DNA of 64,000 bases from Geovibrio ferrireducens (GCF_026226615.1 NZ_JAJAPB010000002.1:186001-250000), one strand, 5' to 3'. Shown: positions 44,401-58,532, counted from the first letter of the stretch. Notes: generated by a model from the letters alone, not told the origin. Made by a program: numbers and translations.

Positions 44401-44838
44401 ATGAAAGATAAATTTATTGAACAGTTTAAAGAAAGAATAGTATCGATAATTCTAGCACCTGTTTCCATTTTCTTTTTGTGGAGTTTGCAGCAGCTTACCA
44501 ATGGCCTATATGAGAAGATGGAACCTATTATCCTTGAACATATCTCAAAAAGATTGCTTGGGGTCGCTGTAATTATGGAAGCAGTAATGATTATTATATT
44601 ACTATTCGTTGTTTATATCCTAAAACCAAAGGGAATGAGCTTAAAATATGCTATCTATTGGGATAAGGACAAGAATCCTCATTGTCCAAGCTGTAAAAAG
44701 CCTCTGAATAGCTATGATGACTACGGTATAAGTGGTATTGGATTTTATTGTAATAGTTGCAACTTAGTTCATCCAATGTCCAAAAAAGGAATTTATTTAA
44801 CAATTTCTGAGGCAAGGAAAATAATGGATAATATGTAG
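44401..44838 (+). CDS. Small membrane protein with zinc-ribbon-like Cys motifs
   Basis: I do not recognise the family. The 145-residue protein has two hydrophobic segments (IVSIILAPVSIFFLWSL near residue 15 and LLGVAVIMEAVMIIILLFVVYIL near residue 65). A cytosolic C-terminal part carries CPSCKKPL and CNSCNLVHP, a C-x2-C plus C-x2-C zinc-ribbon arrangement. A GGGG-type ribosome site precedes the ATG. Base composition is AT-rich like the neighbouring mobile genes. It lies just outside the left boundary of the integrative element. Confidence 0.65.
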   Translation: MKDKFIEQFKERIVSIILAPVSIFFLWSLQQLTNGLYEKMEPIILEHISKRLLGVAVIMEAVMIIILLFVVYILKPKGMSLKYAIYWDKDKNPHCPSCKKPLNSYDDYGISGIGFYCNSCNLVHPMSKKGIYLTISEARKIMDNM

Positions 44839-44864
44839 AAAATAACAAACTGTATACACAAAGA

Positions 44865-44930
44865 AAAGACGCATATTTCTCTGAAAATGTGCCAAAAGTG
44901 TGCCAAATCAAAAATGATCGCTGTAGATAA
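44865..44930 (+). pseudogene. 3' remnant of a second tyrosine integrase
   Basis: The frame reads KDAYFSENVPKVCQIKND-RCR-stop, nearly identical in sequence and phase to the last residues of the integrase fragment at 57601-58385 (KGVIFSESVPKVCQIKND-RRN). It is followed, as there, by the tRNA-Pro 3' sequence. It is therefore the tail of another, related element that was inserted at the same tRNA before or beside the present one. The rest of that gene is gone. Confidence 0.75.
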
Positions 44931-44946
44931 TTGATATATAAAAGAG

Positions 44947-44975
44947 AAAAAATCGGGGAAACAGGATTCGAACCT
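44947..44975. repeat. Left attachment site: copy of the tRNA-Pro 3' end
   Basis: This 29-bp sequence is identical to 58403-58431, which covers the 3' end and T-arm of the intact tRNA-Pro gene (from AATCGGGG to GATTCGAACC). After position 44975 the two differ. It is the duplicated core left by site-specific insertion into the tRNA gene and marks the left end of the element; core-to-core distance is 13,456 bp. Confidence 0.9.
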
Positions 44976-45133: not shown

Positions 45134-45541
45134 CTAGGAGACGAGTCTGATCAAATCATCAACCAGTTTTTCGCTAATTTCGTTGCCGGATTGTTCGTAA
45201 AGAGTGGTTATTAGTTTTACCTTTTTATCCACAGAGAGAGCATGAAAAATATTTTCATATTTCTCGCCATATAATGTTTTGAATATTTGGGAAAAGATAT
45301 TTGAATCCTGTCCGGGCACCCTTTTGCCATTCACGATATAATCAATACTAAGTTCGCACTGCAAGCATGCCCCAACCAACAGATCCATGCTGATCGTGTT
45401 TTTCATGCGCCACTGAGAAATGCTTCTCGGGTGTGTTCCGATCTTTTCTGCTAATTCATTATCCCTTTGAACAGACAGGGACCCTTTCAGCCTTGTTATA
45501 ATTCCCTCTATATCAAATTGAGTATTCTTACCTTTCATCAT
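45134..45541 (-). CDS. Phage CI-like helix-turn-helix repressor
   Basis: The protein of about 134 residues starts MMKGKNTQFDIEGIITRLKGSLSVQRDNELAEKIGTHPRSISQWRMKN, a CI-type N-terminal helix-turn-helix domain found in bacteriophage repressors. It lacks a long C-terminal protease domain; the rest is helical (IFSQIFKTLYGEKYENIFHALSVDKKVKLITTLYEQSG). It is divergent from the small gene at 45763 with a 220-bp AT-rich control region, as expected for a repressor of element functions. The GGAG site favours one of two adjacent ATGs (45541 or 45538). Confidence 0.8.
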   Translation of the reverse strand: MMKGKNTQFDIEGIITRLKGSLSVQRDNELAEKIGTHPRSISQWRMKNTISMDLLVGACLQCELSIDYIVNGKRVPGQDSNIFSQIFKTLYGEKYENIFHALSVDKKVKLITTLYEQSGNEISEKLVDDLIRLVS

Positions 45542-45762
45542 AACTCCTTCAAAACACAACAGAGCAATTATCTCTGTACATCTTAAATACAATACAAAAT
45601 AACTCGCTGCAACACAGAATATCTTTTAAAGTTTATAAACTACATTTTACATTGACAAAAGTAAAATACAGTTTATCTTTTTATGAAAATATAGTTTTGG
45701 ATAAAAAAGACACAAAAATGACCCGGGAATCCAAGTAAGAATATACATCAGCAAGGAGGTAC

Positions 45763-45921: not shown

Positions 45922-45975
45922 CCGCCCTTAATAAAGCGCTGGTTCTGTTTGGCCCCAGCGTCTTATTAAGGTGGG
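45922..45975. repeat. Long imperfect inverted repeat abutting tRNA-Pro
   Basis: The arms at 45922-45942 and 45955-45975 (CCTTAATAAAGCGCTGG against CCAGCGTCTTATTAAGG) pair over about 18 of 21 positions with a 12-nt loop. The right arm runs into the first bases of the tRNA-Pro gene. It could form a leader hairpin in the tRNA precursor or mark an old insertion end. Confidence 0.55.
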
Positions 45976-46043
45976 TATAGCTCAAGTGGTAGAGTACGTG
46001 CTTTGGAAGCATGTTGTTGCAGGTTCAAATCCTGTTACCCGCA
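45971..46043 (+). tRNA. tRNA-Pro (anticodon UGG) carried by the element
   Basis: The 73-nt sequence folds into a full cloverleaf: acceptor GTGGGTA/TACCCGC (one G-U pair), D-stem GCTC/GAGT, anticodon stem CGTGC/GCATG with loop TTTGGAA (anticodon TGG), variable loop TTGTT and T-arm GCAGG-TTCAAAT-CCTGT. CCA is not encoded. It has the same anticodon as the chromosomal tRNA-Pro that serves as the insertion site, but its sequence is quite different. A virus or plasmid origin is likely. Confidence 0.92.
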
Positions 46044-46088
46044 TATTTGTTTTCGGTTCGGTGCAAGTCCGACTACGGGTATTTAAAT

Positions 46089-46161
46089 AGCCCTATGGCC
46101 GAAGAGGTAAGGCAACGGATTTTGATTCCGTGATGTGTAGGTTCGAGTCCTACTAGGGCCG
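46089..46161 (+). tRNA. tRNA-Gln (anticodon UUG) carried by the element
   Basis: The 73-nt cloverleaf has acceptor AGCCCTA/TAGGGC-C (the 1-72 pair is A-C, weak as is usual for tRNA-Gln), D-stem GCC/GGC, anticodon stem ACGGA/TCCGT with loop TTTTGAT (anticodon TTG), variable loop GATGT and T-arm GTAGG-TTCGAGT-CCTAC, discriminator G. It lies 45 bp after tRNA-Pro on the same strand. The spacer holds a T-arm-like piece (TTCGG..AAGTCCGA) that may be a relic of a third tRNA. Confidence 0.92.
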
Positions 46162-46182
46162 TTTATTTTAATGGAGGTTAAG

Positions 46183-46648: not shown

Positions 46649-47644
46649 TTAGCGAGGTATAAAGTTCACTTTTACAGAGAAGCATTTTTCTGTGCAGGCC
46701 TTTATGCATGTCTGACACCCAGAACAGAAATCAGAGCTGTAGACTACCCTTCCGTCACTAAGACTTAAAGAACCCGTGGGGCAAAGCCTTACACACAGGC
46801 CGCATCGAGAACATCGGGACTCATCAATATCCATTTCACACACCGGGAGATTTCTGTCATAATGAAAAGGATTAGAAAAGTTCCCTTTCAACACGGTTAA
46901 TACTGCCAGTAAAAGCATCTGCCGTTGAGAAGGTTTTTTTCTGTTACCGCTGAAGCTGACAGGTTTATACTCCTGTGCAGAAAACACATCCAGAGTGTTG
47001 GCCAACCCTAACGTCATTTCCATACCGATATGTTTAAAAAAGCCTCTGCGGTTAAGATTAACAGGTCCGGCTGCTTTGACACTAGGGAAACCCTCTGCTG
47101 TCAACACAATTTTATCCTCATGAGTTTCAACTGTTAAATTTACCCCGCTGAGGGATTCACACAAATTCCTGATACTGTCAATCTGTTTGCCCAGTATATC
47201 ACAACCGTTTTGCAAGCGGCACTCACTGCAAGCACCGTGGTGAAAGAAAAAGGAGGATATCCCTTTGGTCAGAAGCCACAAAAGGTTTACAGCGTGCAGT
47301 TCACCCAGACATTCCAGCCTGTAAACCCGTTTGATGATTGTTTCCCTGCAGGATAATTGCAATAGGCCACTTTTTGCTTTATCAAGCATAAATGAACAGA
47401 AAATGTCCTCAGTGGTGCCACTCCTTTTAAATGCTCCGTAAGCACAGACTCCTACGCATTTCCCACAATTTATACACTTCGTTTCATCAATTGAGATTCC
47501 CGTTCCGGGGCGGCCGATTATTACAGCGTCTTCAGTACAGGCATCCAAGCAATCTCTGCATTCTGCTTTTTTGTGGTACATTCTAACGCAAAACGCCGAA
47601 TCAGGTTTTACCGTTAAGATTTTATTTGCTCTTAAACCGAACAT
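46649..47644 (-). CDS. Polyferredoxin with four or more Fe-S motifs and a twin-Arg-like segment
   Basis: The 331-residue protein has N-terminal ferredoxin motifs (CVRMYHKKAECRDCLDAC and KCINCGKCVGVCAYGAF), a central ACSECRLQNGC, and C-terminal motifs RCSRCGLCVRLCPTGSL and FCSGCQTCIKACTEKC. An internal NRRGFFKHIGMEM resembles a twin-arginine motif but is not N-terminal, so its meaning is unclear. It is the last gene of the molybdoenzyme operon, 10 bp after the TorD-like gene. A role in electron delivery, or in supplying electrons to the radical SAM proteins, is inference. Confidence 0.75.
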   Translation of the reverse strand: MFGLRANKILTVKPDSAFCVRMYHKKAECRDCLDACTEDAVIIGRPGTGISIDETKCINCGKCVGVCAYGAFKRSGTTEDIFCSFMLDKAKSGLLQLSCRETIIKRVYRLECLGELHAVNLLWLLTKGISSFFFHHGACSECRLQNGCDILGKQIDSIRNLCESLSGVNLTVETHEDKIVLTAEGFPSVKAAGPVNLNRRGFFKHIGMEMTLGLANTLDVFSAQEYKPVSFSGNRKKPSQRQMLLLAVLTVLKGNFSNPFHYDRNLPVCEMDIDESRCSRCGLCVRLCPTGSLSLSDGRVVYSSDFCSGCQTCIKACTEKCFSVKVNFIPR

Positions 47645-47654
47645 TTATAGAACT

Positions 47655-48359
47655 CTATTGGCCACCGTTCTCTAGGTATTCGACCATTTCACTGACATAC
47701 GAATAATCTACTTTTACAAAGCCCATTGTCATATGTGCAAGAGCGGCGTAAAAACCATCGGCATCGGCAGAAAGTAAATCTCTTCCTAATAAATGAACCC
47801 ACCTGAGGAGATGCTGTTCCATAAACTTACGGTGTGCTTTGAGTATACTGACTGCTTCATCCAGATTACCTTCCTCAAGGCTCCTGTAAACCAGTTCATT
47901 AAGTTTCTGTAGAAAAGCTAATTCCACAGCTATATGATCTTCCGGCTCTTTAAATTCTTTTGTTACCCCAAGCTGAAATTCTGCATAAAGCTCTAAAACT
48001 TCATCTCTCTGCTCCTGCATGACCAGGTTGTTTGGCGACAGATAAACTGATTCATATGGATGAACGTGACTTACTACATCATTAGGTGATACGTTTAAAA
48101 AAAGAGTTGCATATTTAAATGCCAGCTCTTCAGCTAAATCAGAAAAGCTGTCAGCTTTACTGAGCAGATTTCGCATTGTTTCAATGCCTTTGGAAAGCAT
48201 TTGTTCATTTGTATTGGTGTTGTAGTCTGATAATAAATCCAGGTTATTATTCATGTCTGAGAGATATTTCTCGTCTGCTTCCTTCAGGTAGCCTCTTGAC
48301 AGGAAGCTATAGACAAAATCCCTTAGTCTGGTTGCATTTTGAAAAACATTGAGTTCCAC
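47655..48359 (-). CDS. TorD/DmsD-family molybdoenzyme maturation chaperone
   Basis: The 234-residue all-helical protein has the family motif EPEDHIAVELAFLQKL near residue 140 and HVHPYESVYLSPNNLVMQ before it. These chaperones bind the Tat signal of a DmsA/TorA-type enzyme and hold it until the molybdenum cofactor is inserted. The client is almost certainly the DmsA-like protein five genes upstream in the same operon. It lies between the second radical SAM gene (42-bp gap) and the polyferredoxin gene. Confidence 0.88.
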   Translation of the reverse strand: MELNVFQNATRLRDFVYSFLSRGYLKEADEKYLSDMNNNLDLLSDYNTNTNEQMLSKGIETMRNLLSKADSFSDLAEELAFKYATLFLNVSPNDVVSHVHPYESVYLSPNNLVMQEQRDEVLELYAEFQLGVTKEFKEPEDHIAVELAFLQKLNELVYRSLEEGNLDEAVSILKAHRKFMEQHLLRWVHLLGRDLLSADADGFYAALAHMTMGFVKVDYSYVSEMVEYLENGGQ

Positions 48360-48401
48360 TTTTCACCTCGTTTAAAAGTTTTTAACAGAAAGCACTGTAA
48401 G

Positions 48402-50159
48402 CTATAAATATTTTTCTAAAACCGGAACTTTACCGGCTAAGGTCAGTTCTTTTATCATTTTTAAATCCCTCATTAAAAACGATACGGCTTTGTCTTTTTT
48501 AACTATAATATCGTAAAGATTCTTATATTTCAGAAACTCAGGCCGGCCCATTACTAAGCTGACCATGCAGCCTGTATAGTAGACAGACAGTATGTTTTGA
48601 AGGTATGTATCCAGGCTCTGCTCTGCCCCAAGGTTCATTTTAAGAATCTTTTCGACTGTTCTGTAAGCGAAGTCCCTTAATGGACGGTCTGCAATGTCGT
48701 CTATTAAAGCATGATTAAAATCGGTCCGGAACTGAAGCGAATGAGCAAGCTCAAGCATCGGTTTATAGAAAAAAAAATTGGAATTATTGCAGAACATTTT
48801 AGCTATGACCAGTCTGACTATTTCTAAGTAAATATGGACAGTGTTCCGGCCCACCCATACATTTGGATAAGGATAATAAAAGTTCCTCATGGGGATAAAT
48901 TCACCTATGGACTTTTTGGAAATATTCGTGCCTGGGTAAGGGTTAAGGAGAAATATATTAGATTGGACTCTAATATTATCCAGTGCAGAACTGTGCTGCA
49001 CTGTTTTTGAAAATTCCTGTAAAAGCTTGCGGGAGTAGTCTGCCTTTTCGTACGGAGATATAATATATCCAATGTAGATTTCTTTAGACAGCTGATTTTT
49101 TCCTGAATTAAGATATTCCATAAAGTCAAGAATCATATCTAACTCACGGTCAAGCTCTTCTGACGATCTTAGTTTTCCGTTACACTTTCTGCCGATAAAA
49201 TCATCCTGTTCAATTCTGTCCCGGCCTATGAAAAAATTATGTATGCCGAATTCATCAACAATATCGTAGAATTCTTCATCAAGATCTGTTGGGTCTGCGA
49301 AAATGTTCATGCCGTCAAACTGTACTCTTCCGGTTTGTCTGCGCATATAGTCAACCGTCTGTTTTCTGTTGATTTTATTAAAAGGGGCGCTGTCAGATAA
49401 AGAAAGAATCACCTTTTGTCCGGTTTCTTTCTTAACGGCATCAGCAGAATCTTCAACCCAGCTTATAAGTTTCGGCCAGTACTGAAAAATAGTGCCGGAA
49501 GGTTGTATAAAGCAGTAGTCACAGGCATTAGGGCAGCTGTCATTGAGAAGGATTCTTATATCGGCATAATCCTTTGTTGAACCTATCAGGGGAACTATGG
49601 GTAAGGTAAAACTCCCTCTTCCCTGCCCCTGAATTTCTGAATTATTCAGATAAAATGCTCCTTTACCTAAGGCAGGGCCTGACATATTAATAACATCGTC
49701 TTTTTTATGTATTTTTACACTTTTGTCAACAACAGCCAGTTTAATAAATTCCAGAAAAGTTTCGCCTCCGCCTCTGAAAATAATGTCAAACTCGTCCTCT
49801 TTTAAAGAGTAATTCACCTCCTCCATAGAATTGAAATGAACCCCGCCGGCTACTATTAAAGAGGCAGGGTGGCTTTCTCTTATCATTGCGGCAAAATCCG
49901 AAGCGACAGCGTATGTGCTTGTCCAGCATGAGATACAAAATACAGGAGCAGTATTCCTCTCCAGAAATTCAGCGAATTGCGTATAAATGGTGCCGGCATA
50001 TTTATCTTCCTCAGAGGCGGGGAAAACGGCAATATCCTTAATGCCTGATTCCTGTATATAGTATATCAGGGTTGTCGCCGCTGTATCTTCTTCCACAGAG
50101 TGAAAAAAGGTTGAAGTCTCTCTAAGAACAATGAAAATTAACTCATGTGTATGTATCAA
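48402..50159 (-). CDS. Radical SAM protein with B12-binding-like N-terminus, second of a pair
   Basis: The 585-residue protein has an N-terminal Rossmann-like region (LIFIVLRET ... PASLIVAGGVHFNSMEEV ... DIIFRGGGETFLEF) of the cobalamin-binding type. A radical SAM core follows with NDSCPNACDYCFIQPSG (C-x3-C-x2-C) near residue 210, then a long helical C-terminal domain. It is translationally coupled to the preceding radical SAM gene by a 4-bp ATGA overlap, so the two probably act together. No substrate can be named. Occurrence inside a molybdoenzyme operon between the Fe-S subunit and the chaperone is unusual. Confidence 0.82.
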   Translation of the reverse strand: MIHTHELIFIVLRETSTFFHSVEEDTAATTLIYYIQESGIKDIAVFPASEEDKYAGTIYTQFAEFLERNTAPVFCISCWTSTYAVASDFAAMIRESHPASLIVAGGVHFNSMEEVNYSLKEDEFDIIFRGGGETFLEFIKLAVVDKSVKIHKKDDVINMSGPALGKGAFYLNNSEIQGQGRGSFTLPIVPLIGSTKDYADIRILLNDSCPNACDYCFIQPSGTIFQYWPKLISWVEDSADAVKKETGQKVILSLSDSAPFNKINRKQTVDYMRRQTGRVQFDGMNIFADPTDLDEEFYDIVDEFGIHNFFIGRDRIEQDDFIGRKCNGKLRSSEELDRELDMILDFMEYLNSGKNQLSKEIYIGYIISPYEKADYSRKLLQEFSKTVQHSSALDNIRVQSNIFLLNPYPGTNISKKSIGEFIPMRNFYYPYPNVWVGRNTVHIYLEIVRLVIAKMFCNNSNFFFYKPMLELAHSLQFRTDFNHALIDDIADRPLRDFAYRTVEKILKMNLGAEQSLDTYLQNILSVYYTGCMVSLVMGRPEFLKYKNLYDIIVKKDKAVSFLMRDLKMIKELTLAGKVPVLEKYL

Positions 50160-52507
50160 AGGACAGCTCCTTTAGCAGACTGAGCAGTGAGATTGCTATC
50201 TTTTGCAATTTTAAGAACTTTCATATGCATAATTTTATGGTTTAAATTTCTGATGACATTCTGTTTCTCAGGGAAGAGATTTTGCAGACATTCAAGCATC
50301 ACTTCATTGTAGAAAATATCATCATCTTTATTCATATCCACGATCAGCTCATAGGCTTTTTCAAAATTTCCTGATTTGGCATATGTATAAGCCAGTTTAA
50401 TCAGGGTTTGCTCACTGGAATCTGACTTATGATAGTAGTCTGCTGCCTCTTTGTATTTGCCGGCAAATGCAATAATATCTCCAAAGGCTTCAGCAGTTCT
50501 ATGAGGGTCATGAGTGTAGCTGAGCATAGCCTGAAAGCATCTCTCAATTTCTGTAAATTTGTGCATTTTTGAATAATAAGATACTAAATTAAGAAAAATA
50601 TGAGGCATTTCAGAAAGCCGGCTGTAGGATGTACTTTTCAGAGCCAGAAATAACAGAAGTTCATTGCTGGACCTTTCCAAAAGCTGAAAAGTTAAGTAAC
50701 TATAGTTATGCTGCGAATACTTTCCGTACAGCTGATTTATATTTTTTACTTTGACCCTGTCAAATATCCTGATTACAGTAACAATCAGGCTGACATTTGT
50801 CCCATCGTCCAGCCTGACCCTTTTGGACTCCTGTACTTTCATCCCTTTCAGAACGAACTTGGGAAACCGACTTCTGAGATCATTGAGTCCGGGTTTGAGA
50901 ATATGTTTTTCGGAAACATCGCCGCCTTCGTATTGGCAAAATACAATTGCACGGCTGTTCTCCTGTATTCTATCAGATTCAGTATATATTTCTGCCTGTT
51001 TAAGAAGCTGGGATATTCTTGCTTTATCATTTGAAATATGCCGCCTGAAACCTTCAATACACTCCATCATTATTTCTTTATCTTCAAGCAGTGATGCAAG
51101 GTAAAGCAGGTATTCATAAAAGCGCTGTTCTTTTTTAAGCATTTCTCTGTTTGTTATCAAAAAATCGATTGTATGGAAAATATTTATATTATTTTTTATA
51201 TTATACTCGGTTTCTGCATTATAAAGAGCCCAGACCGCCTGCGTGCCTTTTATATCCTGTGTTGTCATTGAACAGGTTTCATACTCATGCCAATAAGAAA
51301 GATACCTGGGCAGGTATTTGCTGCTCAGTCTGAATTTAAACTTTTCAGGGTTCTTCCCGTATATGGAACCGTAAGTGAGCTGAAGCTGCTGTGCACATGA
51401 GTTTGCGTATATAGGTATGTTATATTTCTGAACAACAGTGATTGTCTTTCTGGCATCTTCATAGGTTTCACCCGGCTGACCGTACATGGAGAAAAGTTCA
51501 ACCCTTAAACCGATGGACTGTGCGTAACTGACCATTTCATGAAATCTGTTTACAAATACCCCTTTATTCATGTTATCAAGAACATTATCGCTTCCTGACT
51601 CAAGCCCAAAGCCAATACAGTGCAGACCTGCCTCTTTCATTAGCCTCAGCAGTTTCTTATCAACCATATCCACTCTGGTTTGGCACCAGAAAGGTATTCT
51701 TATTCCTTTATTTATTTTCTGTTCCATCAGTTCAGCAGTCCGGTTTCTGTATGCGGTAAAGTTAGGATCACCTATCCAGAGACTTTCCATACCTGCTGAT
51801 TCAAGATATTCCATTTCTTCTAAAACATGCTCTATCGAGTGAAAGCGTATCTTTTGACTGTTAAAAAAAGGGGTCACACAAAAATTACACATATGCTCAC
51901 AGCCTCTCGAAGTAAAAACAGAGGCTGTTTTTTTCATGCTTAGATCAATAATACCGCTGATATACGGCGATGGGTAAATATCAAGATTGTCCGGCATACA
52001 CTTCGGAACCTGAGTGGTGAAATATTTATCGGAATCTTTGAATGAAATCCCGGGAACATTTTTCAGGCTGTCTCCATTGCAAAGTGCCTCTACTATCTCC
52101 AGTGTTGTTATTTCTCCCTCGCCTCTGTTGCAGATTATATCAAAATCCTGGAGATCAACAAGTCCTTCTTCCGGCATGAAAAGAGCCTGAGGTCCACCCA
52201 AAATTATTTTTGTTTCAGGATAAAACATTTTTATAAACCCTGCAAAAAAGCGTATACGTTCCATAAGATAATGATAGCCGCAAAAACCCACCAGACCGGG
52301 CTGAAACTCCTGCATATATCTATTTAATTTATCTAGTGTAAGAGGAACATCTTTTACATCATCTAGAATTACACTGTCATGCTTGTTCTTTTTAAGATAA
52401 GAAGCTATATATCCTTGTTGTATTGGAATTGTATTCGTAGATACTATCGGATCGAGTTGATTCATATTAATAAAAGCTGTATTCATAATTCCTACATAAT
52501 TAATCAT
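50156..52507 (-). CDS. B12-binding-type radical SAM protein with TPR-like tail, first of a pair
   Basis: The 783-residue protein has a B12-binding-like domain (about 1-180: IPIQQGYIASYLKKNKHDSVILDD, PGLVGFCGYHYLMER, KIILGGPQALFMPEEG, DIICNRGEGEITTLEI). The radical SAM core contains SRGCEHMCNFCVTPFF (C-x3-C-x2-C) and GFGLESGSDNVLDNMNKG. A C-terminal region of about 350 residues ends in TPR-like helical pairs (AEAFGDIIAFAGKYKEAADYYHK ... AYTYAKSGNFEKAYELI). ATG 52507 lies 2 nt after a strong hairpin; an ATG at 52486 is an alternative. It is followed by its partner through a 4-bp overlap. Substrate unknown. Confidence 0.82.
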   Translation of the reverse strand: MINYVGIMNTAFINMNQLDPIVSTNTIPIQQGYIASYLKKNKHDSVILDDVKDVPLTLDKLNRYMQEFQPGLVGFCGYHYLMERIRFFAGFIKMFYPETKIILGGPQALFMPEEGLVDLQDFDIICNRGEGEITTLEIVEALCNGDSLKNVPGISFKDSDKYFTTQVPKCMPDNLDIYPSPYISGIIDLSMKKTASVFTSRGCEHMCNFCVTPFFNSQKIRFHSIEHVLEEMEYLESAGMESLWIGDPNFTAYRNRTAELMEQKINKGIRIPFWCQTRVDMVDKKLLRLMKEAGLHCIGFGLESGSDNVLDNMNKGVFVNRFHEMVSYAQSIGLRVELFSMYGQPGETYEDARKTITVVQKYNIPIYANSCAQQLQLTYGSIYGKNPEKFKFRLSSKYLPRYLSYWHEYETCSMTTQDIKGTQAVWALYNAETEYNIKNNINIFHTIDFLITNREMLKKEQRFYEYLLYLASLLEDKEIMMECIEGFRRHISNDKARISQLLKQAEIYTESDRIQENSRAIVFCQYEGGDVSEKHILKPGLNDLRSRFPKFVLKGMKVQESKRVRLDDGTNVSLIVTVIRIFDRVKVKNINQLYGKYSQHNYSYLTFQLLERSSNELLLFLALKSTSYSRLSEMPHIFLNLVSYYSKMHKFTEIERCFQAMLSYTHDPHRTAEAFGDIIAFAGKYKEAADYYHKSDSSEQTLIKLAYTYAKSGNFEKAYELIVDMNKDDDIFYNEVMLECLQNLFPEKQNVIRNLNHKIMHMKVLKIAKDSNLTAQSAKGAVL

Positions 52508-52509
52508 AT

Positions 52510-52539
52510 GTACAGGCAGAGAATAAACTCTGCCTGTAC
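52510..52539 (-). repeat. Perfect 12-bp intercistronic hairpin
   Basis: GTACAGGCAGAG and CTCTGCCTGTAC pair perfectly around a 6-nt loop, in the 39-bp gap between the Fe-S subunit gene and the first radical SAM gene. No T run follows on the minus strand. It more likely sets message processing or stability between the structural and radical SAM halves of the operon than ends transcription. Confidence 0.8.
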
Positions 52540-52546
52540 GAATGAG

Positions 52547-53293
52547 CTATTTCTTTACAAAGATAATATTTGGTCCGAGCTCAGTACCGTCTGCAAAGTC
52601 ATCAGGGTCCATTGCCGAGGCTTCCACAATGTTTTTTCCAAAACCACCCCATTTATTTCTGAGCTGATCAATTGGCCCTGCATCTAAAGCTCTGTTCAGA
52701 CAGCTTGCTACACATGCTGGTTTAAGACCTTCTTTAATTCTGTCCAGACACAAGGTGCACTTGGTCATCTTTGGTCTGGCAGGGTCATCCTGATCAAATT
52801 CGCTGTAGTCAGGTGAGTAAAATTGAGGCGCATCCCACGGACATGAACTCTTGCATTTGCCGCATGATATGCATCCAGATGTGTTTACAAGAACAATGCC
52901 GTAATCCTTCTCCTTATAGATGATACCCATCGGACAGGCCTTAGCACATGCAGGTTCACTGCAGTGATTACAGGCAACAGATGCATGTTTTACGGGAAAC
53001 GGATATGCTCTTTCATTATGATTGACCCTTCTCCATTCCTCCTTCATATAATACTTTCTGTTCTGCTCATAGTTGGTTTCACCGGAGCTGTTCAAATAAA
53101 AGGATTCCTGATCCATTTGATTTACATCCACAACATAAGTGTCAGATGTGTACCAGTCGGTATCCGGTCGCATACTATCTTTATTTATGCTGTAGTCTCC
53201 TCTTTTGTCATCGTTCCAGTTTTTACAAGCAAGCATGCAGGCCTTACATCCAACACATCTTGTCTGGTCAAAATAAAATCCCCATTGACTCAT
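52547..53293 (-). CDS. DmsB-like four-[4Fe-4S] electron-transfer subunit
   Basis: The 248-residue protein begins MSQWGFYFDQTRCVGCKACMLACKNWND and has four ferredoxin motifs: that one, CNHCSEPACAKACPMGI, CISCGKCKSSCPWDAPQF and CTLCLDRIKEGLKPACVASC. This is the standard layout of DmsB/NrfC/PsrB-type subunits that pass electrons to the molybdenum subunit. It has no Tat signal, so it would be carried out with its partner. It lies 20 bp after the catalytic gene. No NrfD-type membrane anchor is present in the operon. Confidence 0.92.
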   Translation of the reverse strand: MSQWGFYFDQTRCVGCKACMLACKNWNDDKRGDYSINKDSMRPDTDWYTSDTYVVDVNQMDQESFYLNSSGETNYEQNRKYYMKEEWRRVNHNERAYPFPVKHASVACNHCSEPACAKACPMGIIYKEKDYGIVLVNTSGCISCGKCKSSCPWDAPQFYSPDYSEFDQDDPARPKMTKCTLCLDRIKEGLKPACVASCLNRALDAGPIDQLRNKWGGFGKNIVEASAMDPDDFADGTELGPNIIFVKK

Positions 53294-53313
53294 TGTTTAC
53301 CTCCACAACTTTA

Positions 53314-56247
53314 CTAGTAATCTGGATGATTTATACTAACTTCACAAAGGTTCCCGTTAAAATGGTTGTCGCCAACCTGTCCACATAACGGATCTTTAGG
53401 GCTTCCAAAGTCTTTATCGTGAGTTAAAGTATTTTCACAGCCACCAATATCAACGTTAACTATATACTTATAGTAAGTTGTTCCTTCATCGTCAGTTTTG
53501 CTGTCAACCGAATTACCAAGATCGATATCATACCAAGCCTCGTATGTCTCACTTCCTTTTCTATACCAAACACCGTGCGGAAGGCTAACAACACCTTCTC
53601 TTATTGTTGGCGAAATACCTACCCCCACTTTTAAACAACCCCAGTCATTATAGATATATACCATATCACCATCTTTTATACCTCTCTTAGAAGCATCTGC
53701 AGGGTTCATAATTGCACGTTTTGGGTAATCAAACTGATCGCGTATCATGGAAACATTGTCATAAACAGTATGCACTCTGTTTCTCGCATGTTTCGTTGTG
53801 AACTGCAATGGATATTTTTTACCTTTAATTCCAATGTTGTCGCCCGCCATGATTTTGTCGTAGCCTTCATAAGGCTCAACATACTTGACCCGTGGGGTCA
53901 CTCTAGGTGCGCCAATCTGATTATCCAGGTCGCAAGCATCTCTATAGTAATAAAATGGCGAGAAAAATTGAATCTTACCAGTTTCAGTAGTGTAAGGGAG
54001 ATACCCCATCAAGCCAACCATAGGGTTTGCAAGGTTACCGCTGACTTCCTTCTGAACTACACCTTGTTCTTTTAATTCTGCAAAAGTAGGCTTAGCAATA
54101 TCTGTTACACTTGCTGTTTCCCACGCTTCTGCACAAAGCTCTTCATCAGTTTTTCCATTTCTGCTGTATGAAACAGTTATGCCTCTGGAATTGAGTTTTT
54201 CTGCAAGCAGAATATCAATATCAACATCTGACTTAGTATCATACATAGGTTCAATGAGTTTATTCTGATAATATGTACCCTGACCTGAAGTAAAAAATGG
54301 TTTTTCATGGTGTGAGCACGCAGGCAGAATGACGTCTGCATAAGCTGCTGTAGGAGTCATATACTGCTCATAAATGACATAATGCTTGATTTTGTAGCCA
54401 CTACCGTTTTTCTGAGTGAAAATATTCACAGCTTTGTTTGTATTTGGGCATGTATTGAATGAGTTAGTAATATGGTAGGATCCCAAAACCATATCAACTT
54501 CAAGTTTAGCTTCCGCAGGCGAGCCAAGATCAACACCGTAAATTGATTTAGTGTCATTATAGAACTGTTCAGCTGTTCTTCCATCTCGTCCTGTGACAAC
54601 AAGATCTACAAATTTATTAGCATCTACTGCAATAAACGGGTAAGTTGTGCCACTGCCAAGCTCAGGGTAAGTTAAACCACCTGGGAAGCTCACAGGGTTA
54701 GATTCACCATCAGACGAGTTTACACCTAGGTTACCACCTTGTTTAACTGTGTGACCACACATCGCTGCCAAACATATCATCATCCAAACATTATGCATGC
54801 CGTTATTTGTTTTTTGTCCGCCGTTATTTCCGTTTTCCAGAAATACATCTCCAGCGTGTGCAAATGCATCTGCCAAATTAAATATTGTTGACTCATCTAC
54901 ACCAGTCAACTGGGATGCCCATCTAATAACAGCTTCTTCCTTTTTATCAGGATCTAAACCTAATTCGTGAGCTTTCTCAACTCCTAAGCCATCCAGATAT
55001 TCAACAAATGACATTCCAGCAGGGACATGGACATCTTTACCAACAAGTCCTTCATCTGCATAAGGGTGCTGTTCTTTAGTAAGTGGCGTCTCAAATGAAA
55101 AGTCAAGCTTTGACATAACGAATCCGGGATGCTTAGGCGGTGCAACGACTGTAAAAGAATTCCCATCACTATCTACAGGATTGCCTTGTGTCGGATAAAA
55201 TCCAAAACAATTCGACTTTATAAATGTATCATCATGCCAACCTCTTTTGTAGATTATATATGCCATAGCAACAGAAAGTGCAGCATCCGTTTGTGGTCTA
55301 ACCTGAATAAACTGGGGTAAATTGTACTCAGGAAAACCTGTAGAAAGAATAGAAGCAGTGTCAGTGTATTGAGCGTCAACAGTAACTATAGGAACACCAG
55401 CTTCTTTTGCTTTGGTCAGAAAGAACGTTTTATTTGGTTCTTTTACAGCGGGATCCGCTCCCCACTGTATGATAAAATCTGAGTTTTTATAGTTATACAC
55501 AGAGTTTCCGCCAGCTAGCCCAGGAAGCACCCCAACTGATCCTACAGCTGCAAAAAGCATGTTTTCGAATGAAGGTGCTCCAGTAGGAAGTATTGTAGGT
55601 CCGAGATACTTTGATAAAGTAGAACCTGCACCTTCAGCAAATCCCATAAATGCCATACCTGCGAACATCATACGATTATGTAATCCATTTGGAGGACCTG
55701 CAACCATAGGAATATACGGCAGTTCACCACTGTCAAATCTGGAATAAACATCAGCAATCTTATCAGCTACTATGTCGAGAGCCTTATCCCAACTTACTCT
55801 TTTAAAACCAGTGACATCTCCTCGTTCTTTTGTCTGGATAAGCGGGTATTTCAATCTGTCAGGCGAATATGTCCTTTTTATCTGAGCATAACCTCTGACA
55901 CAAGCCCTTGTCTGGACGAATGATGTAGATTCATCTGCTTCCAGTGAATTTTCTCTGGGAATATCACCTGCAGCTGTTAGTTTGGCAATTCTTGCCTGTG
56001 GAGTTCCATGCCCTTTTACATAAAATTTAAAAGGACATCTTCCACCACAGTTATGAGGATGTGTACCCATAACTTCTTTCAGTGTCCTGTCCATAACTAA
56101 ATTTTCATCAGGAACAATCACTTCATCCGTATAGGCTTTCGGATTGCTGTCTCCGCCGCAGCCATAGGTAACAGCTGTTGCGCTGAGGGCTGAAGCCCAT
56201 TTCAGAAAGGATCTTCTGCTTGTTTTTAGTTCGCTTTTAAGACTCAT
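53314..56247 (-). CDS. DmsA-like molybdopterin oxidoreductase, Tat-exported catalytic subunit
   Basis: The 977-residue enzyme begins with a twin-arginine signal (TSRRSFLKWASALSATAV). The proximal cluster is bound by His63-x3-Cys67-x3-Cys71 and Cys116, with His replacing the first Cys of E. coli DmsA. The layout is DmsA/YnfE-like: RACVRGYAQIKRTYSPDRLKYPL, FIIQWGADPAVKEPNKT, VIYEQYMTPTAAYADVILPACSHHEKP and a C-terminal molydopterin-binding domain (MNPADASKRGIKDGDMVYIYND). Ser226 (GAPSFEN) aligns with the Mo-ligand Ser of DmsA by eye. ATG 56247 has a TAAGGAGG site. Likely a periplasmic terminal reductase; the substrate (S- or N-oxide, Se or As oxyanion) is unknown. Confidence 0.88.
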   Translation of the reverse strand: MSLKSELKTSRRSFLKWASALSATAVTYGCGGDSNPKAYTDEVIVPDENLVMDRTLKEVMGTHPHNCGGRCPFKFYVKGHGTPQARIAKLTAAGDIPRENSLEADESTSFVQTRACVRGYAQIKRTYSPDRLKYPLIQTKERGDVTGFKRVSWDKALDIVADKIADVYSRFDSGELPYIPMVAGPPNGLHNRMMFAGMAFMGFAEGAGSTLSKYLGPTILPTGAPSFENMLFAAVGSVGVLPGLAGGNSVYNYKNSDFIIQWGADPAVKEPNKTFFLTKAKEAGVPIVTVDAQYTDTASILSTGFPEYNLPQFIQVRPQTDAALSVAMAYIIYKRGWHDDTFIKSNCFGFYPTQGNPVDSDGNSFTVVAPPKHPGFVMSKLDFSFETPLTKEQHPYADEGLVGKDVHVPAGMSFVEYLDGLGVEKAHELGLDPDKKEEAVIRWASQLTGVDESTIFNLADAFAHAGDVFLENGNNGGQKTNNGMHNVWMMICLAAMCGHTVKQGGNLGVNSSDGESNPVSFPGGLTYPELGSGTTYPFIAVDANKFVDLVVTGRDGRTAEQFYNDTKSIYGVDLGSPAEAKLEVDMVLGSYHITNSFNTCPNTNKAVNIFTQKNGSGYKIKHYVIYEQYMTPTAAYADVILPACSHHEKPFFTSGQGTYYQNKLIEPMYDTKSDVDIDILLAEKLNSRGITVSYSRNGKTDEELCAEAWETASVTDIAKPTFAELKEQGVVQKEVSGNLANPMVGLMGYLPYTTETGKIQFFSPFYYYRDACDLDNQIGAPRVTPRVKYVEPYEGYDKIMAGDNIGIKGKKYPLQFTTKHARNRVHTVYDNVSMIRDQFDYPKRAIMNPADASKRGIKDGDMVYIYNDWGCLKVGVGISPTIREGVVSLPHGVWYRKGSETYEAWYDIDLGNSVDSKTDDEGTTYYKYIVNVDIGGCENTLTHDKDFGSPKDPLCGQVGDNHFNGNLCEVSINHPDY

Positions 56248-56260
56248 ATTATCCTCCTTA

Positions 56261-56411
56261 CTAGTATGCGTTGGGCGCATGCGCCGTTTTGTGGCATACA
56301 AAGCATGTGTTGTCCTGCACGGGGTAGTGGCAGTTGTTGCAGTGTCTCTGAAGGCTCGCTCCCGAACCGCCCCAGCCGGGTCTGTGGCTCGAAGGGGGAG
56401 TTACGCTGTGA
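56261..56411 (-). pseudogene. 3' end of a multihaem cytochrome c gene, cut by the IS3 element
   Basis: Read leftward from the IS edge, the frame gives HSVTPPSSHRPGWGG, then two haem-binding motifs CNNCH and CFVCH, and ends KTAHAPNAY-stop 13 bp before the molybdoenzyme ATG. This is the C-terminal end of a small periplasmic cytochrome c that would have been the first gene of the operon and the likely electron donor to the reductase. Everything upstream, including the promoter, is missing at the IS boundary. Confidence 0.85.
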
Positions 56412-56481: not shown

Positions 56482-56748
56482 ATGAAACGCAGTCGATTTT
56501 CAGAAACTCAGATCGTAAAAATACTCAAAGAAGCCGAGTCCGGCAGACAGGTAAAAGACATCTGTCGTGAGTACGGCATCAGTGACGCCACCTACTACAA
56601 CTGGAAGTCCAAATACGGAGGCATGGAAGCCTCAGACATCAAGAGATTAAAAGAGCTTGAAGAAGAGAACCGTAAACTGAAGCAGATGTTTGCCGATCTT
56701 AGCTTAGAGAATACAGCTCTGAAGGATATTCTCTCAAAAAAGCTTTAA
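56482..56748 (+). CDS. IS3-family transposase OrfA
   Basis: The 88-residue protein has a helix-turn-helix (SRFSETQIVKILKEAESGRQVKDICREYGISDATYYNWKSKYGG) and a C-terminal leucine-zipper-like coiled coil (LKELEEENRKLKQMFADLSLENTALKDIL). It recognises the IS ends. Near its end the A6G run at 56736-56742 would allow a -1 shift into orfB to make the OrfAB transposase. Confidence 0.92.
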   Translation: MKRSRFSETQIVKILKEAESGRQVKDICREYGISDATYYNWKSKYGGMEASDIKRLKELEEENRKLKQMFADLSLENTALKDILSKKL

Positions 56749-56798
56749 AGCCGTCGGAGAAACGTAGTTTAGCAGATTACTGTAGAGCAACTTACGGC

Positions 56799-57581
56799 AT
56801 GAGCGTAAGTCATGCTTGCCGTACAGTCAGCATCAGTCGTCCGGTTTATTACTATCAGCCGGATGTAGATAGAGACAACCATGTTATAGCTGTTCTGCTT
56901 GAGTTATGTGAGAAATATCCGGGATATGGCTTCGGAAAGCTATTTGCCATCATCCGTCGGCTTGGACATAGATGGAATCACAAGAGGGTTCACAGGGTTT
57001 ATTGCCTTTTGAAGCTTAACATGCGCCGCAAGGCCAAGAAAAGGCTTCCAAGCAGGAATCCTCTCCATATCAGTGTACCTGAATCCATCAACCAGTGCTG
57101 GTCTATAGATTTCATGAGTGACAGCTTATACTGTGGGAGGAAATACAGGACATTTAATGTCGTTGATGACTTTAATCGAGAAGCTCTTGCCATAGAGGTC
57201 GATCTCAATCTTCCGGCAGCAAGAGTAATAAGGGTTCTTGACAGGATTGCTTCGTGGCGAGGATATCCGGCCAAACTCAGAATGGACAATGGCCCTGAGT
57301 TTATCTCAGTAAAATTGGCTGACTGGGCGGAATACCATGATGTTGAGCTTGAGTTCATACAACCTGGCAAGCCGTTTCAGAATTCATATGTGGAAAGATT
57401 TAATCGGACGTTCAGGAACGAGGTGTTGGACAGACATTTGTTTTTCTCTTTAAGCGAAGTTCGGGAAGAAGCTGACCGATGGATGGTTGAATACAATACA
57501 GAAAGACCGCATGATTCTCTGGGGAAAATGACTCCGGAGGAGTATGCTGAAAGAGCGGAAAACTCTAAATATCTGCTGTAA
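56799..57581 (+). CDS. IS3-family transposase OrfB (DDE integrase core)
   Basis: The 260-residue frame holds the catalytic core: first Asp in CWSIDFMSDSL, second in RMDNGPEFISVKLADWA and the Glu in NSYVERFNRTFRNEVLD. The frame is open upstream of the ATG back to the A6G slippery site at 56736-56742, so the active product is probably the frameshifted OrfAB fusion, not OrfB alone. The gene is intact, so the IS may still move. Confidence 0.92.
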   Translation: MSVSHACRTVSISRPVYYYQPDVDRDNHVIAVLLELCEKYPGYGFGKLFAIIRRLGHRWNHKRVHRVYCLLKLNMRRKAKKRLPSRNPLHISVPESINQCWSIDFMSDSLYCGRKYRTFNVVDDFNREALAIEVDLNLPAARVIRVLDRIASWRGYPAKLRMDNGPEFISVKLADWAEYHDVELEFIQPGKPFQNSYVERFNRTFRNEVLDRHLFFSLSEVREEADRWMVEYNTERPHDSLGKMTPEEYAERAENSKYLL

Positions 57582-57600: not shown

Positions 57601-58385
57601 GACCAACTCATATCCAAATGTTCATAAAACAATGTAATCTTAGCCCAAAATCTATTTCAAATATTATAGGCGTATTACATCAAATCCTTGATAATGCTTA
57701 CAACGATGAACTGTTAAGCAAAAATCCTACAAAAGTAATTAAAAAACCAAGAGTCGAAACAAGTGAAGTCGACCCCTTTAATATAAATGAAGCAGAGTCA
57801 ATAATTAATTGGATGCAGGAACACCATCCACAGATGACTATATTTTTTGCGCTTGGCTTTTACACCGGCATGAGAACAGGTGAATTGCTTGCGCTTAAAT
57901 GGAGTGATATTGATTTTTCAAAATATACTATTACTGTACAAAGAACCATCACTAAGAATCGTATAAAAGAAAGCACTAAAACAGAAAAATCAAGAACAAT
58001 AGATATTATTCCGGCGCTTGAAGCATATTTAAAAAACCATAAGCAATACACTTTTCTTAAATCAGATTGGGTTTTAACGACTTTATATAACCAGCCATTT
58101 ATGAAGACAGAGAATATTAATAGGCTCTACTTTACCCCTTGCTTAAAAGCTCTTGGATTTCGATATAGAACGATTTACCAAATGAGGCATAGCTTCGCAT
58201 GTATGATGATCGATGCAGGAGAGAATTTGAATTGGATCAAATCCATGCTTGGGCACAGAACACTGTCAATGATTTTTAAACGTTATGGCAACAAAATCAA
58301 TCGTCAAGATGGCACACGAAAAGGCGTAATCTTTTCTGAGAGTGTGCCAAAAGTGTGCCAAATTAAAAATGACCGCCGCAACTGA
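57601..58385 (+). pseudogene. 5'-truncated tyrosine integrase of the element
   Basis: The open frame runs from the IS edge (PTHIQMFIKQCNLSPKSISNIIGVLHQILDNA, the end of the core-binding domain) through the catalytic domain. It shows Arg in GMRTGELLALKW, the His/Arg box QMRHSFACMMIDAG, LGHRTLSM and the nucleophile Tyr in FKRYGNK. The arm-binding and much of the core-binding domain are missing. The first ATG (57618) could start a short protein, but it would lack DNA-binding parts. The gene points at the tRNA-Pro target, as is normal for tRNA-inserting elements. Confidence 0.88.
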
Positions 58386-58402: not shown

Positions 58403-58431
58403 AAAAAATCGGGGAAACAGGATTCGAACCT
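58403..58431. repeat. Right attachment site within the tRNA-Pro gene
   Basis: This is the second copy of the 29-bp direct repeat at 44947-44975. It covers the 3' end and T-arm of the intact tRNA-Pro gene. Homology between the two ends extends about 80 bp to the left of the repeat because both follow an integrase tail. Confidence 0.9.
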
Positions 58432-58482
58432 GCGACCCCCTGTGCCCAAGACAGGTACGCTACCAAACTGCGCTATTCCCCG
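58409..58482 (-). tRNA. Chromosomal tRNA-Pro (anticodon UGG), target of the element
   Basis: On the minus strand the 74-nt gene begins CGGGGAATAGCGCAGTTTGG and ends TTCGAATCCTGTTTCCCCGA. Anticodon stem CCTGT/ACAGG encloses the loop CTTGGGC, anticodon TGG. The sequence resembles bacterial tRNA-Pro(UGG) genes. CCA is not encoded. Its 3' end is regenerated by the inserted element, so it stays functional. Confidence 0.95.
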
Positions 58483-58532
58483 ATTATTTAAGGAAGGGAA
58501 CTATACTATTCCCGTTTATCTCTGTCAATAGA

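Follow-up and report, generated by a model that had tools for sequence, protein, structure and literature searches.

To our knowledge, the maturation of respiratory molybdoenzymes has been described as cofactor synthesis and insertion, the action of chaperones and export by the Tat system, and we know of no step in which a radical SAM protein acts on the enzyme itself. An operon of Geovibrio ferrireducens therefore raises the question of what two cobalamin-type radical SAM proteins do beside a DmsA-like reductase. The operon lies in a stretch of 64,000 nucleotides, here called the window, from whose first letter all coordinates without a locus name are counted. A preliminary description of the window had offered three roles for the radical SAM pair: modification of the enzyme or its cofactor, making or processing of an organic substrate, or methylation of an element such as arsenic or selenium.

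Gene content of the operon

The minus strand from 46649 to 56247 carries six intact orfs, and both Pfam and NCBIfam agree with the functions that the preliminary description had given them. MoA (53314-56247), the DmsA-like molybdenum subunit, has molybdopterin oxidoreductase, dinucleotide-binding and Tat domains; its orf is open to 56301, with an ATG at 56247 preceded by the ribosome-binding site AAGGAGG. MoB (52547-53293) is a DmsB-like subunit with a 4Fe-4S dicluster domain that scores 147.9 bits against TIGR02951, under the cut-off of 214. The first radical SAM protein, rSAM1 (50156-52507, with an alternative start that may be the methionine at 52486), has a B12-binding domain, a Radical_SAM domain (81 bits) with the motif CEHMCNFC, and a C-terminal extension with weak TPR matches. 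The second, rSAM2 (48402-50159), is a divergent B12-type radical SAM protein with the motif CPNACDYC, and its TTG start overlaps the stop of rSAM1 by four bases. A TorD/NarJ-type chaperone (TorD, 47655-48359) follows, whose Nitrate_red_del/TorD domain passes PF02613 at 95.9 bits (gathering score 22.2), and then a polyferredoxin identified by domain search (FdX, 46649-47644), in whose sequence no N-terminal signal is recognisable. FdX may serve the radical SAM proteins as reductant, since a polyferredoxin also accompanies a third radical SAM protein, rSAM3 (see below), where the molybdoenzyme genes are elsewhere.

Upstream of MoA, a remnant of a multihaem cytochrome c gene (about 56261-56400, minus strand) retains the last two CxxCH motifs and is cut at an insertion sequence. 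Its end, '...CNNCHYPVQDNTCFVCHKTAHAPNAY*', corresponds to the C-terminal end of a protein with six CxxCH motifs that is encoded in the related locus L010 of genome G018, so that the remnant noticed earlier is real. L010 has the order barrel protein (~480 amino acids), six-CxxCH cytochrome, MoA, MoB, rSAM1, rSAM2, TorD, with 88%, 77%, 65% and 63% identity to the window in MoA, MoB, rSAM1 and rSAM2, and continues into the remains of a second operon consisting of an MoA2 fragment, MoB2, rSAM3, TorD and FdX. Locus L011 of the congener G022 has the order barrel, cytochrome, MoA, MoB, rSAM1, TorD, rSAM2. No gene for a DmsC/NrfD membrane anchor was found in the window operon, L010 or L011. A fourth cluster, L018, occupies a 9-kb contig of a metagenome-assembled genome (MAG) labelled Geobacter, and has the order TorD, a 303-residue protein, rSAM1, rSAM2, TorD, FdX and, last on the right, a barrel fragment; the same MAG encodes an MoA of 64-67% identity on a separate 3-kb contig. 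The 303-residue protein (L018:1524-2435), directly before rSAM1, has a cysteine-rich C-terminus and no Pfam match. Other relatives are found in Mucispirillum and in uncultured Deferribacterales and Deferribacteraceae MAGs, which assigns the window to the Deferribacterota.

Mobility and damage of the window copy

The preliminary description had also called the operon mobile, and the borders of its element bear this out. A perfect 29-bp direct repeat is present at the 3′ end of the tRNA-Pro (TGG) gene that served as integration target (repeat 58403-58431, gene 58408-58483, minus strand) and again at 44947-44975 (minus strand). In the congener G022 the site is empty: the repeat is present once, tRNA-Pro is intact, and no insertion separates the flanking genes, which are the same as in the window; thus the operon rides on an integrated element of 13.5 kb, of which the second repeat marks the far end. 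Within the element are the C-terminal part of a tyrosine integrase that has lost its N-terminus (57618-58385, plus strand), a CI-repressor-like helix-turn-helix gene (45134-45592, minus strand), and the element's own tRNA-Pro(TGG) and tRNA-Gln(TTG) genes (45971-46162, plus strand). The left flank of the element (44838-44946) resembles the integrase-side end, sharing GTGTGCCAAA repeats, and differs from the corresponding sequence of G022; it may have been left behind by an earlier element that used this tRNA gene.

Flanked by the integrase fragment on one side and the cytochrome remnant on the other are IS3-type transposase genes (56482-57581, plus strand; HTH_Tnp_1 56482-56748, rve 56799-57581), in the place expected for the 5′ part of the operon. 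Comparison with its relatives shows that the window has lost, at this point, the gene for the outer-membrane barrel, the 5′ end of the integrase gene and all of the cytochrome gene but its tail. The window operon is thus incomplete, having lost its conduit apart from the cytochrome tail. The element is of horizontally mobile origin but, because its integrase is truncated, the copy in the window has probably lost the ability to move by itself. G022 and G018 carry the operon elsewhere, between transposase genes; at the cut-offs used, another genome of the same genus (G021) had no match to rSAM1, rSAM2 or MoA. The module passes from one genome to another.

A separate clade of DmsA-type reductases

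The preliminary description had considered the operon a candidate for a new class of reductase. In a tree of 46 molybdenum subunits, MoA belongs to a clade of 16 sequences (support 100/100) that lies outside the group formed by DmsA/YnfE, TorA/BisC and MoA2 (93/94), and within it a long stem leads to a sub-clade (100/100) made up of the four MoA proteins linked to the radical SAM pair. No characterised enzyme falls in the MoA clade among the references gathered, a set without SerA, TtrA, SrdA and IdrA. MoA scores 290.3 bits against the DmsA/YnfE model TIGR02166, far from the cut-off of 777.7, while the host's own DmsA (L095b) scores 917.3 bits. Ser226 of MoA, predicted to be the molybdenum ligand, aligns with serines of the motifs YGDYSSA of DmsA and GGDYSTG of TorA and is kept throughout the clade, and in the tree MoA groups with the serine-ligated DmsA/TorA enzymes, not with the ArrA of the host. 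As judged from these sequences, the novelty lies at the level of a separate clade of predicted serine-type reductases, new within a known family.

In its FS0 motif (HPHNCGGRC), MoA has histidine at the first position, as in NarG, where DmsA has cysteine. MoA has a Tat signal (RRSFLK) together with a lipobox (TYGC), and the MoA proteins of L010 and L011 also have Tat signals and a lipobox. All 16 sequences of the MoA clade share Cys871, a residue of the dinucleotide-binding domain that is replaced in the DmsA, TorA and MoA2 sequences compared; it is one lead for a modification site. The 3-Mb genome of the host (G000) contains about 20 genes with molybdopterin-dinucleotide-binding domains, including those of ArrA-, NapA- and NarG-like enzymes, one DmsA, two TorA-like and four MoA2-type enzymes. 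Regulators of the MocR type (GntR plus aminotransferase) adjoin several operons of the MoA clade (L013:10827-12275, L050 and L051).

Among known systems, the DMSO and selenate reductases of Escherichia coli (DmsABC and YnfEFGH-DmsD) share with the window operon a molybdenum subunit with a Tat signal and a predicted serine ligand, a 4Fe-4S dicluster subunit and a TorD/DmsD-type chaperone. In contrast to them, the operon has an MoA outside the DmsA/YnfE clade, a histidine at the first FS0 ligand position and no DmsC/NrfD anchor, and it adds the radical SAM pair and the polyferredoxin. In Shewanella oneidensis, DmsEFABGH reduces DMSO and iodate outside the cell (PMC9048795, PMC11302344), with DmsAB as the part at work there (PMC9048795). 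The intact relatives L010 and L011 are similar to it in combining a barrel, a multihaem cytochrome, MoA, MoB and a chaperone with no anchor. However, their cytochromes have five to six haem motifs rather than ten, the barrel is of ~480 residues, radical SAM and FdX genes are added, and the window copy has no conduit. Three barrel proteins had no match in Pfam, to the MtrB/DmsF family or any other, at E values of 0.01-0.05. The likeness is therefore one of layout and not of demonstrated homology, given the barrel without a Pfam match and the fewer haem motifs. For MoA a lipobox is predicted from the sequence, and a location of the reductase at the cell surface, as in DmsEFAB, is conceivable.

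The radical SAM proteins

That the operon encodes a pair of cobalamin-type radical SAM proteins, as had been claimed, is confirmed by the motifs of both, the domains of rSAM1 and the predicted fold of rSAM2. In rSAM1, a B12-binding domain precedes a radical SAM domain with a CxxxCxxC motif, the arrangement that defines the cobalamin type. Its best NCBIfam match is TIGR04479 (PhpK; 131.5 bits over residues 31-367, cut-off 600), the family of radical SAM P-methyltransferases, but no phosphinate biosynthesis genes are nearby and rSAM1 has a long extra C-terminal region. It scores 108.1 bits against TIGR04014, the methyl-coenzyme M reductase glutamine C-methyltransferase, whose equivalog cut-off is 360. 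The structure prediction of rSAM1 (pLDDT 53, from two sequences) was left out of the fold comparison.

Pfam matches of rSAM2 are weak (B12-binding 31 bits, Radical_SAM 16 bits), but all of its full-length relatives retain the three CxxxCxxC cysteines. Its AlphaFold model (pLDDT 80.5, pTM 0.84) matches CysS, TokK, TsrM and OxsB with E values of 2e-12 to 3e-11, a range that extends to 9e-8 when AprD4 is included, at 12-14% identity, which places it in the fold class of cobalamin-type radical SAM enzymes; in contrast to the first four, it is not part of a small-molecule biosynthesis cluster. The fold class is a known one, to which rSAM1 and rSAM2 add new members. C-methylation is the commonest reaction of this class. 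Methyl transfer by rSAM1 or rSAM2 does not follow from membership, because the class includes OxsB and AprD4, which do not methylate.

Distribution and the radical SAM slot

Homologues of rSAM1 (E<1e-40) are present in three of 51 Deferribacterota genomes, always in this operon, and in L018; all four copies adjoin rSAM2 in clusters of molybdoenzyme type. Nine of the 51 genomes have rSAM2, and a scan of 84,980 species genomes with two peptide patterns, by which distant relatives may be missed, added only L018; among 141 genomes of the order of the Geobacter-labelled MAG, rSAM2 was found in that MAG alone. rSAM1 is thus far less frequent than rSAM2, so that joint action need not be the rule in every genome. 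Searches of plasmids returned generic radical SAM proteins with 23-27% identity to rSAM1 over less than half its length, and with MoA mostly DmsA/TorA-type enzymes at ~25% identity. According to the preliminary description, a functional link would be contradicted by radical SAM homologues lying mostly apart from molybdoenzymes, or by co-location in a single genome. Neither is observed: seven of ten rSAM2 loci are in clusters with molybdoenzyme or accessory genes, and the pair accompanies such genes in four genomes. One of the linked copies, in Mucispirillum, adjoins an MoA2 operon at its barrel-cytochrome end. In G038, G030 and G032, rSAM2 is apart from molybdoenzyme genes; G038 and G032 have MoA at other loci, and neither MoA nor MoA2 was found in G030 at the cut-offs used.

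If rSAM2 serves MoA, one would expect the two to occur together. With the best 16 MoA candidates of each of the 51 genomes scored, MoA was found in seven of nine genomes with rSAM2 and one of 42 without (Fisher P=2.4e-6; P=2e-4 when permuted within families), and rSAM2 did not track MoA2 (P=0.14); the genomes are related and the cut-offs were set by hand, so that these and the following P values are guides rather than exact. G039 has MoA and no rSAM2. MoA2 is tracked by rSAM3 instead (20/25 genomes with rSAM3 against 3/26 without, P=7e-7; 1.4e-3 within families), a radical SAM protein (PF04055, 64 bits in L105) in which no B12 domain was found.

In the host, rSAM3 is encoded in a second operon of like layout, L105 (host contig C2:375500-385049), which has the order barrel, six-haem cytochrome, MoA2, MoB2, rSAM3, TorD, FdX. 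The series MoB2-rSAM3-TorD-FdX recurs, whole or in part, in L111, L112, L115, L116, L118, L119, L121 and L122, and the order from MoA2 to FdX is kept across genera, which indicates that different radical SAM proteins occupy one slot beside the chaperone. Placement of a radical SAM gene after MoB and before the chaperone is thus a recurring theme, of which the cobalamin pair is the MoA version. The host operon L102 (a molybdenum subunit of the MoA clade, MoB, TorD, FdX) has no radical SAM gene alongside in the stretch examined. In Mucispirillum-type genomes (L123-L129), rSAM3 and FdX are grouped with a histidine kinase (tested in L124), and no molybdoenzyme genes adjoin these three.

The boundary between the structural genes and the radical SAM genes is also marked. 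In the window, a hairpin, ACAGGCAGAG-TTTATT-CTCTGCCTGT (52512-52537, minus strand), lies between MoB and rSAM1, and a strong hairpin is likewise found between MoB and the radical SAM gene in L010, L011, L105, L111, L112, L115, L116 and L122, several of those in the last six loci leading into T tracts; none was found at this position in L118. The alignment of the hairpins of the window, L010 and L011 has three sequences only and a covariation term near zero. This placement fits a low expression of the accessory genes, and the hairpin may be a partial terminator or an mRNA stabiliser that keeps them below the structural genes.

Possible roles of the radical SAM pair

Modification of the enzyme is the best supported of the three roles proposed earlier, because the type of radical SAM protein tracks the clade of the molybdenum subunit and a different one fills the same slot; nothing was found to support the methylation of arsenic or selenium or the processing of an organic substrate. 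Maturation of MoA in particular is favoured by the clade-matched types, the fixed slot by the chaperone, the overlap of the paired genes, the lack of other metabolic genes, the accompanying polyferredoxin and the precedent of methyl-coenzyme M reductase. Methyl-coenzyme M reductase is an enzyme of anaerobic energy metabolism some of whose residues are methylated by the B12 radical SAM enzymes MgmA and Mmp10 (PMC11796369, PMC8828468), the target of MgmA being an active-site glutamine (PMC11796369); in contrast, the putative target here is a molybdoenzyme, and rSAM1 is far under the equivalog cut-off noted above. Against maturation of MoA are the unlinked rSAM2 genes, G039, L102 and the MoA2-adjacent rSAM2 of Mucispirillum. 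On balance, the likeliest reading, at about even odds, is that rSAM1 and rSAM2 are maturation factors that modify MoA in the cytoplasm before its export.

The pair might instead make or process a small molecule for respiration, such as a modified quinone, a cofactor, or an organic acceptor or product. Cobalamin radical SAM enzymes of solved structure mostly act in this way (CysS, TokK, TsrM and OxsB), and rSAM2 is unlinked in three genomes. This role seems unlikely, however, as the type of radical SAM protein follows the molybdenum subunit, the slot is next to TorD in both operon types, and the four clusters with the pair have no evident transporter or catabolic gene. A further idea, that the product is a modified ribosomal peptide (RiPP), was pursued by inspecting the gaps beside rSAM2 and TorD, which contain no small orf common to the clusters. 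Another protein could be the target, namely MoB or the precursors of the cytochrome and barrel of the outer-membrane conduit; these last accompany both MoA and MoA2 operons, and it is their end of the MoA2 operon that rSAM2 adjoins in Mucispirillum. Barrel and cytochrome proteins are exported unfolded, rSAM2 does not track the MoA2 operons to which they are common, and several clusters of the MoA clade (L016, L048-L051) lack their genes, all of which make this target distinctly improbable.

Two weaker rivals concern arsenic or selenium and chance. The host may meet arsenic, since it encodes an ArrA-like arsenate reductase elsewhere (L098; NF041714, 1110 bits, cut-off 1600), and rSAM1 has a weak match to ArsL (64 bits); but this score is far under the cut-off of 450, no ArsM or ars genes were seen in the operon or its relatives, and MoA stands in the serine-ligated DmsA/TorA grouping apart from the ArrA of the host, so that methylation or detoxification of arsenic or selenium species beside an oxyanion reductase can be given hardly any credence. 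The location of the window copy on an integrative element, the transposases that flank other copies and the three unlinked rSAM2 genes might suggest that rSAM2 is unrelated to the reductase and merely rides with it. This is very improbable in view of the gene content common to four genomes at different sites, the four-base overlap of rSAM1 and rSAM2 and the co-occurrence across families; the pairing of MoA with radical SAM genes is not a chance assembly.

If the pair does mature MoA, the scheme that we infer, with its target, reaction, electron donor and acceptor, would be as follows. TorD, to judge from its family and that of MoA, would hold MoA during insertion of bis-MGD. rSAM1 and rSAM2 would then modify MoA once or more by radical chemistry, through C-methylation or a related reaction and perhaps close to the active site, using low-potential electrons that may come from FdX. 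The folded MoA-MoB complex is predicted to exit via Tat, and MoA to be lipidated, given its signal and lipobox. In the intact operons, electrons would reach MoB through the outer-membrane barrel and the cytochrome of five to six haems, by analogy with DmsEFAB of Shewanella, and MoA, with its predicted serine-ligated molybdenum, would reduce an oxo-acceptor. The window enzyme could possibly borrow the conduit of L105, which retains both the barrel and the six-haem cytochrome.

Implications for the Deferribacterota

A literature search, with most subscription journals outside its range, found no report linking radical SAM proteins to such operons, and there is a substantial chance that the combination of MoA with radical SAM proteins is a new maturation step. 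The broader proposal, that respiratory molybdoenzymes of the Deferribacterota depend on clade-matched radical SAM proteins for post-translational modification of the molybdenum subunit, here by a cobalamin pair, is tentative, and we consider it somewhat less probable than its negation. If true, it would be the first case in which radical SAM proteins tailor a respiratory Mo-bisMGD reductase, a counterpart to the methylation of methyl-coenzyme M reductase. The analysis defines a separate clade of predicted serine-type reductases in bacteria rich in such enzymes, and the clade-matched radical SAM slot, found across the phylum, suggests a further chemical step in their assembly and names the genes with which it can be tested.
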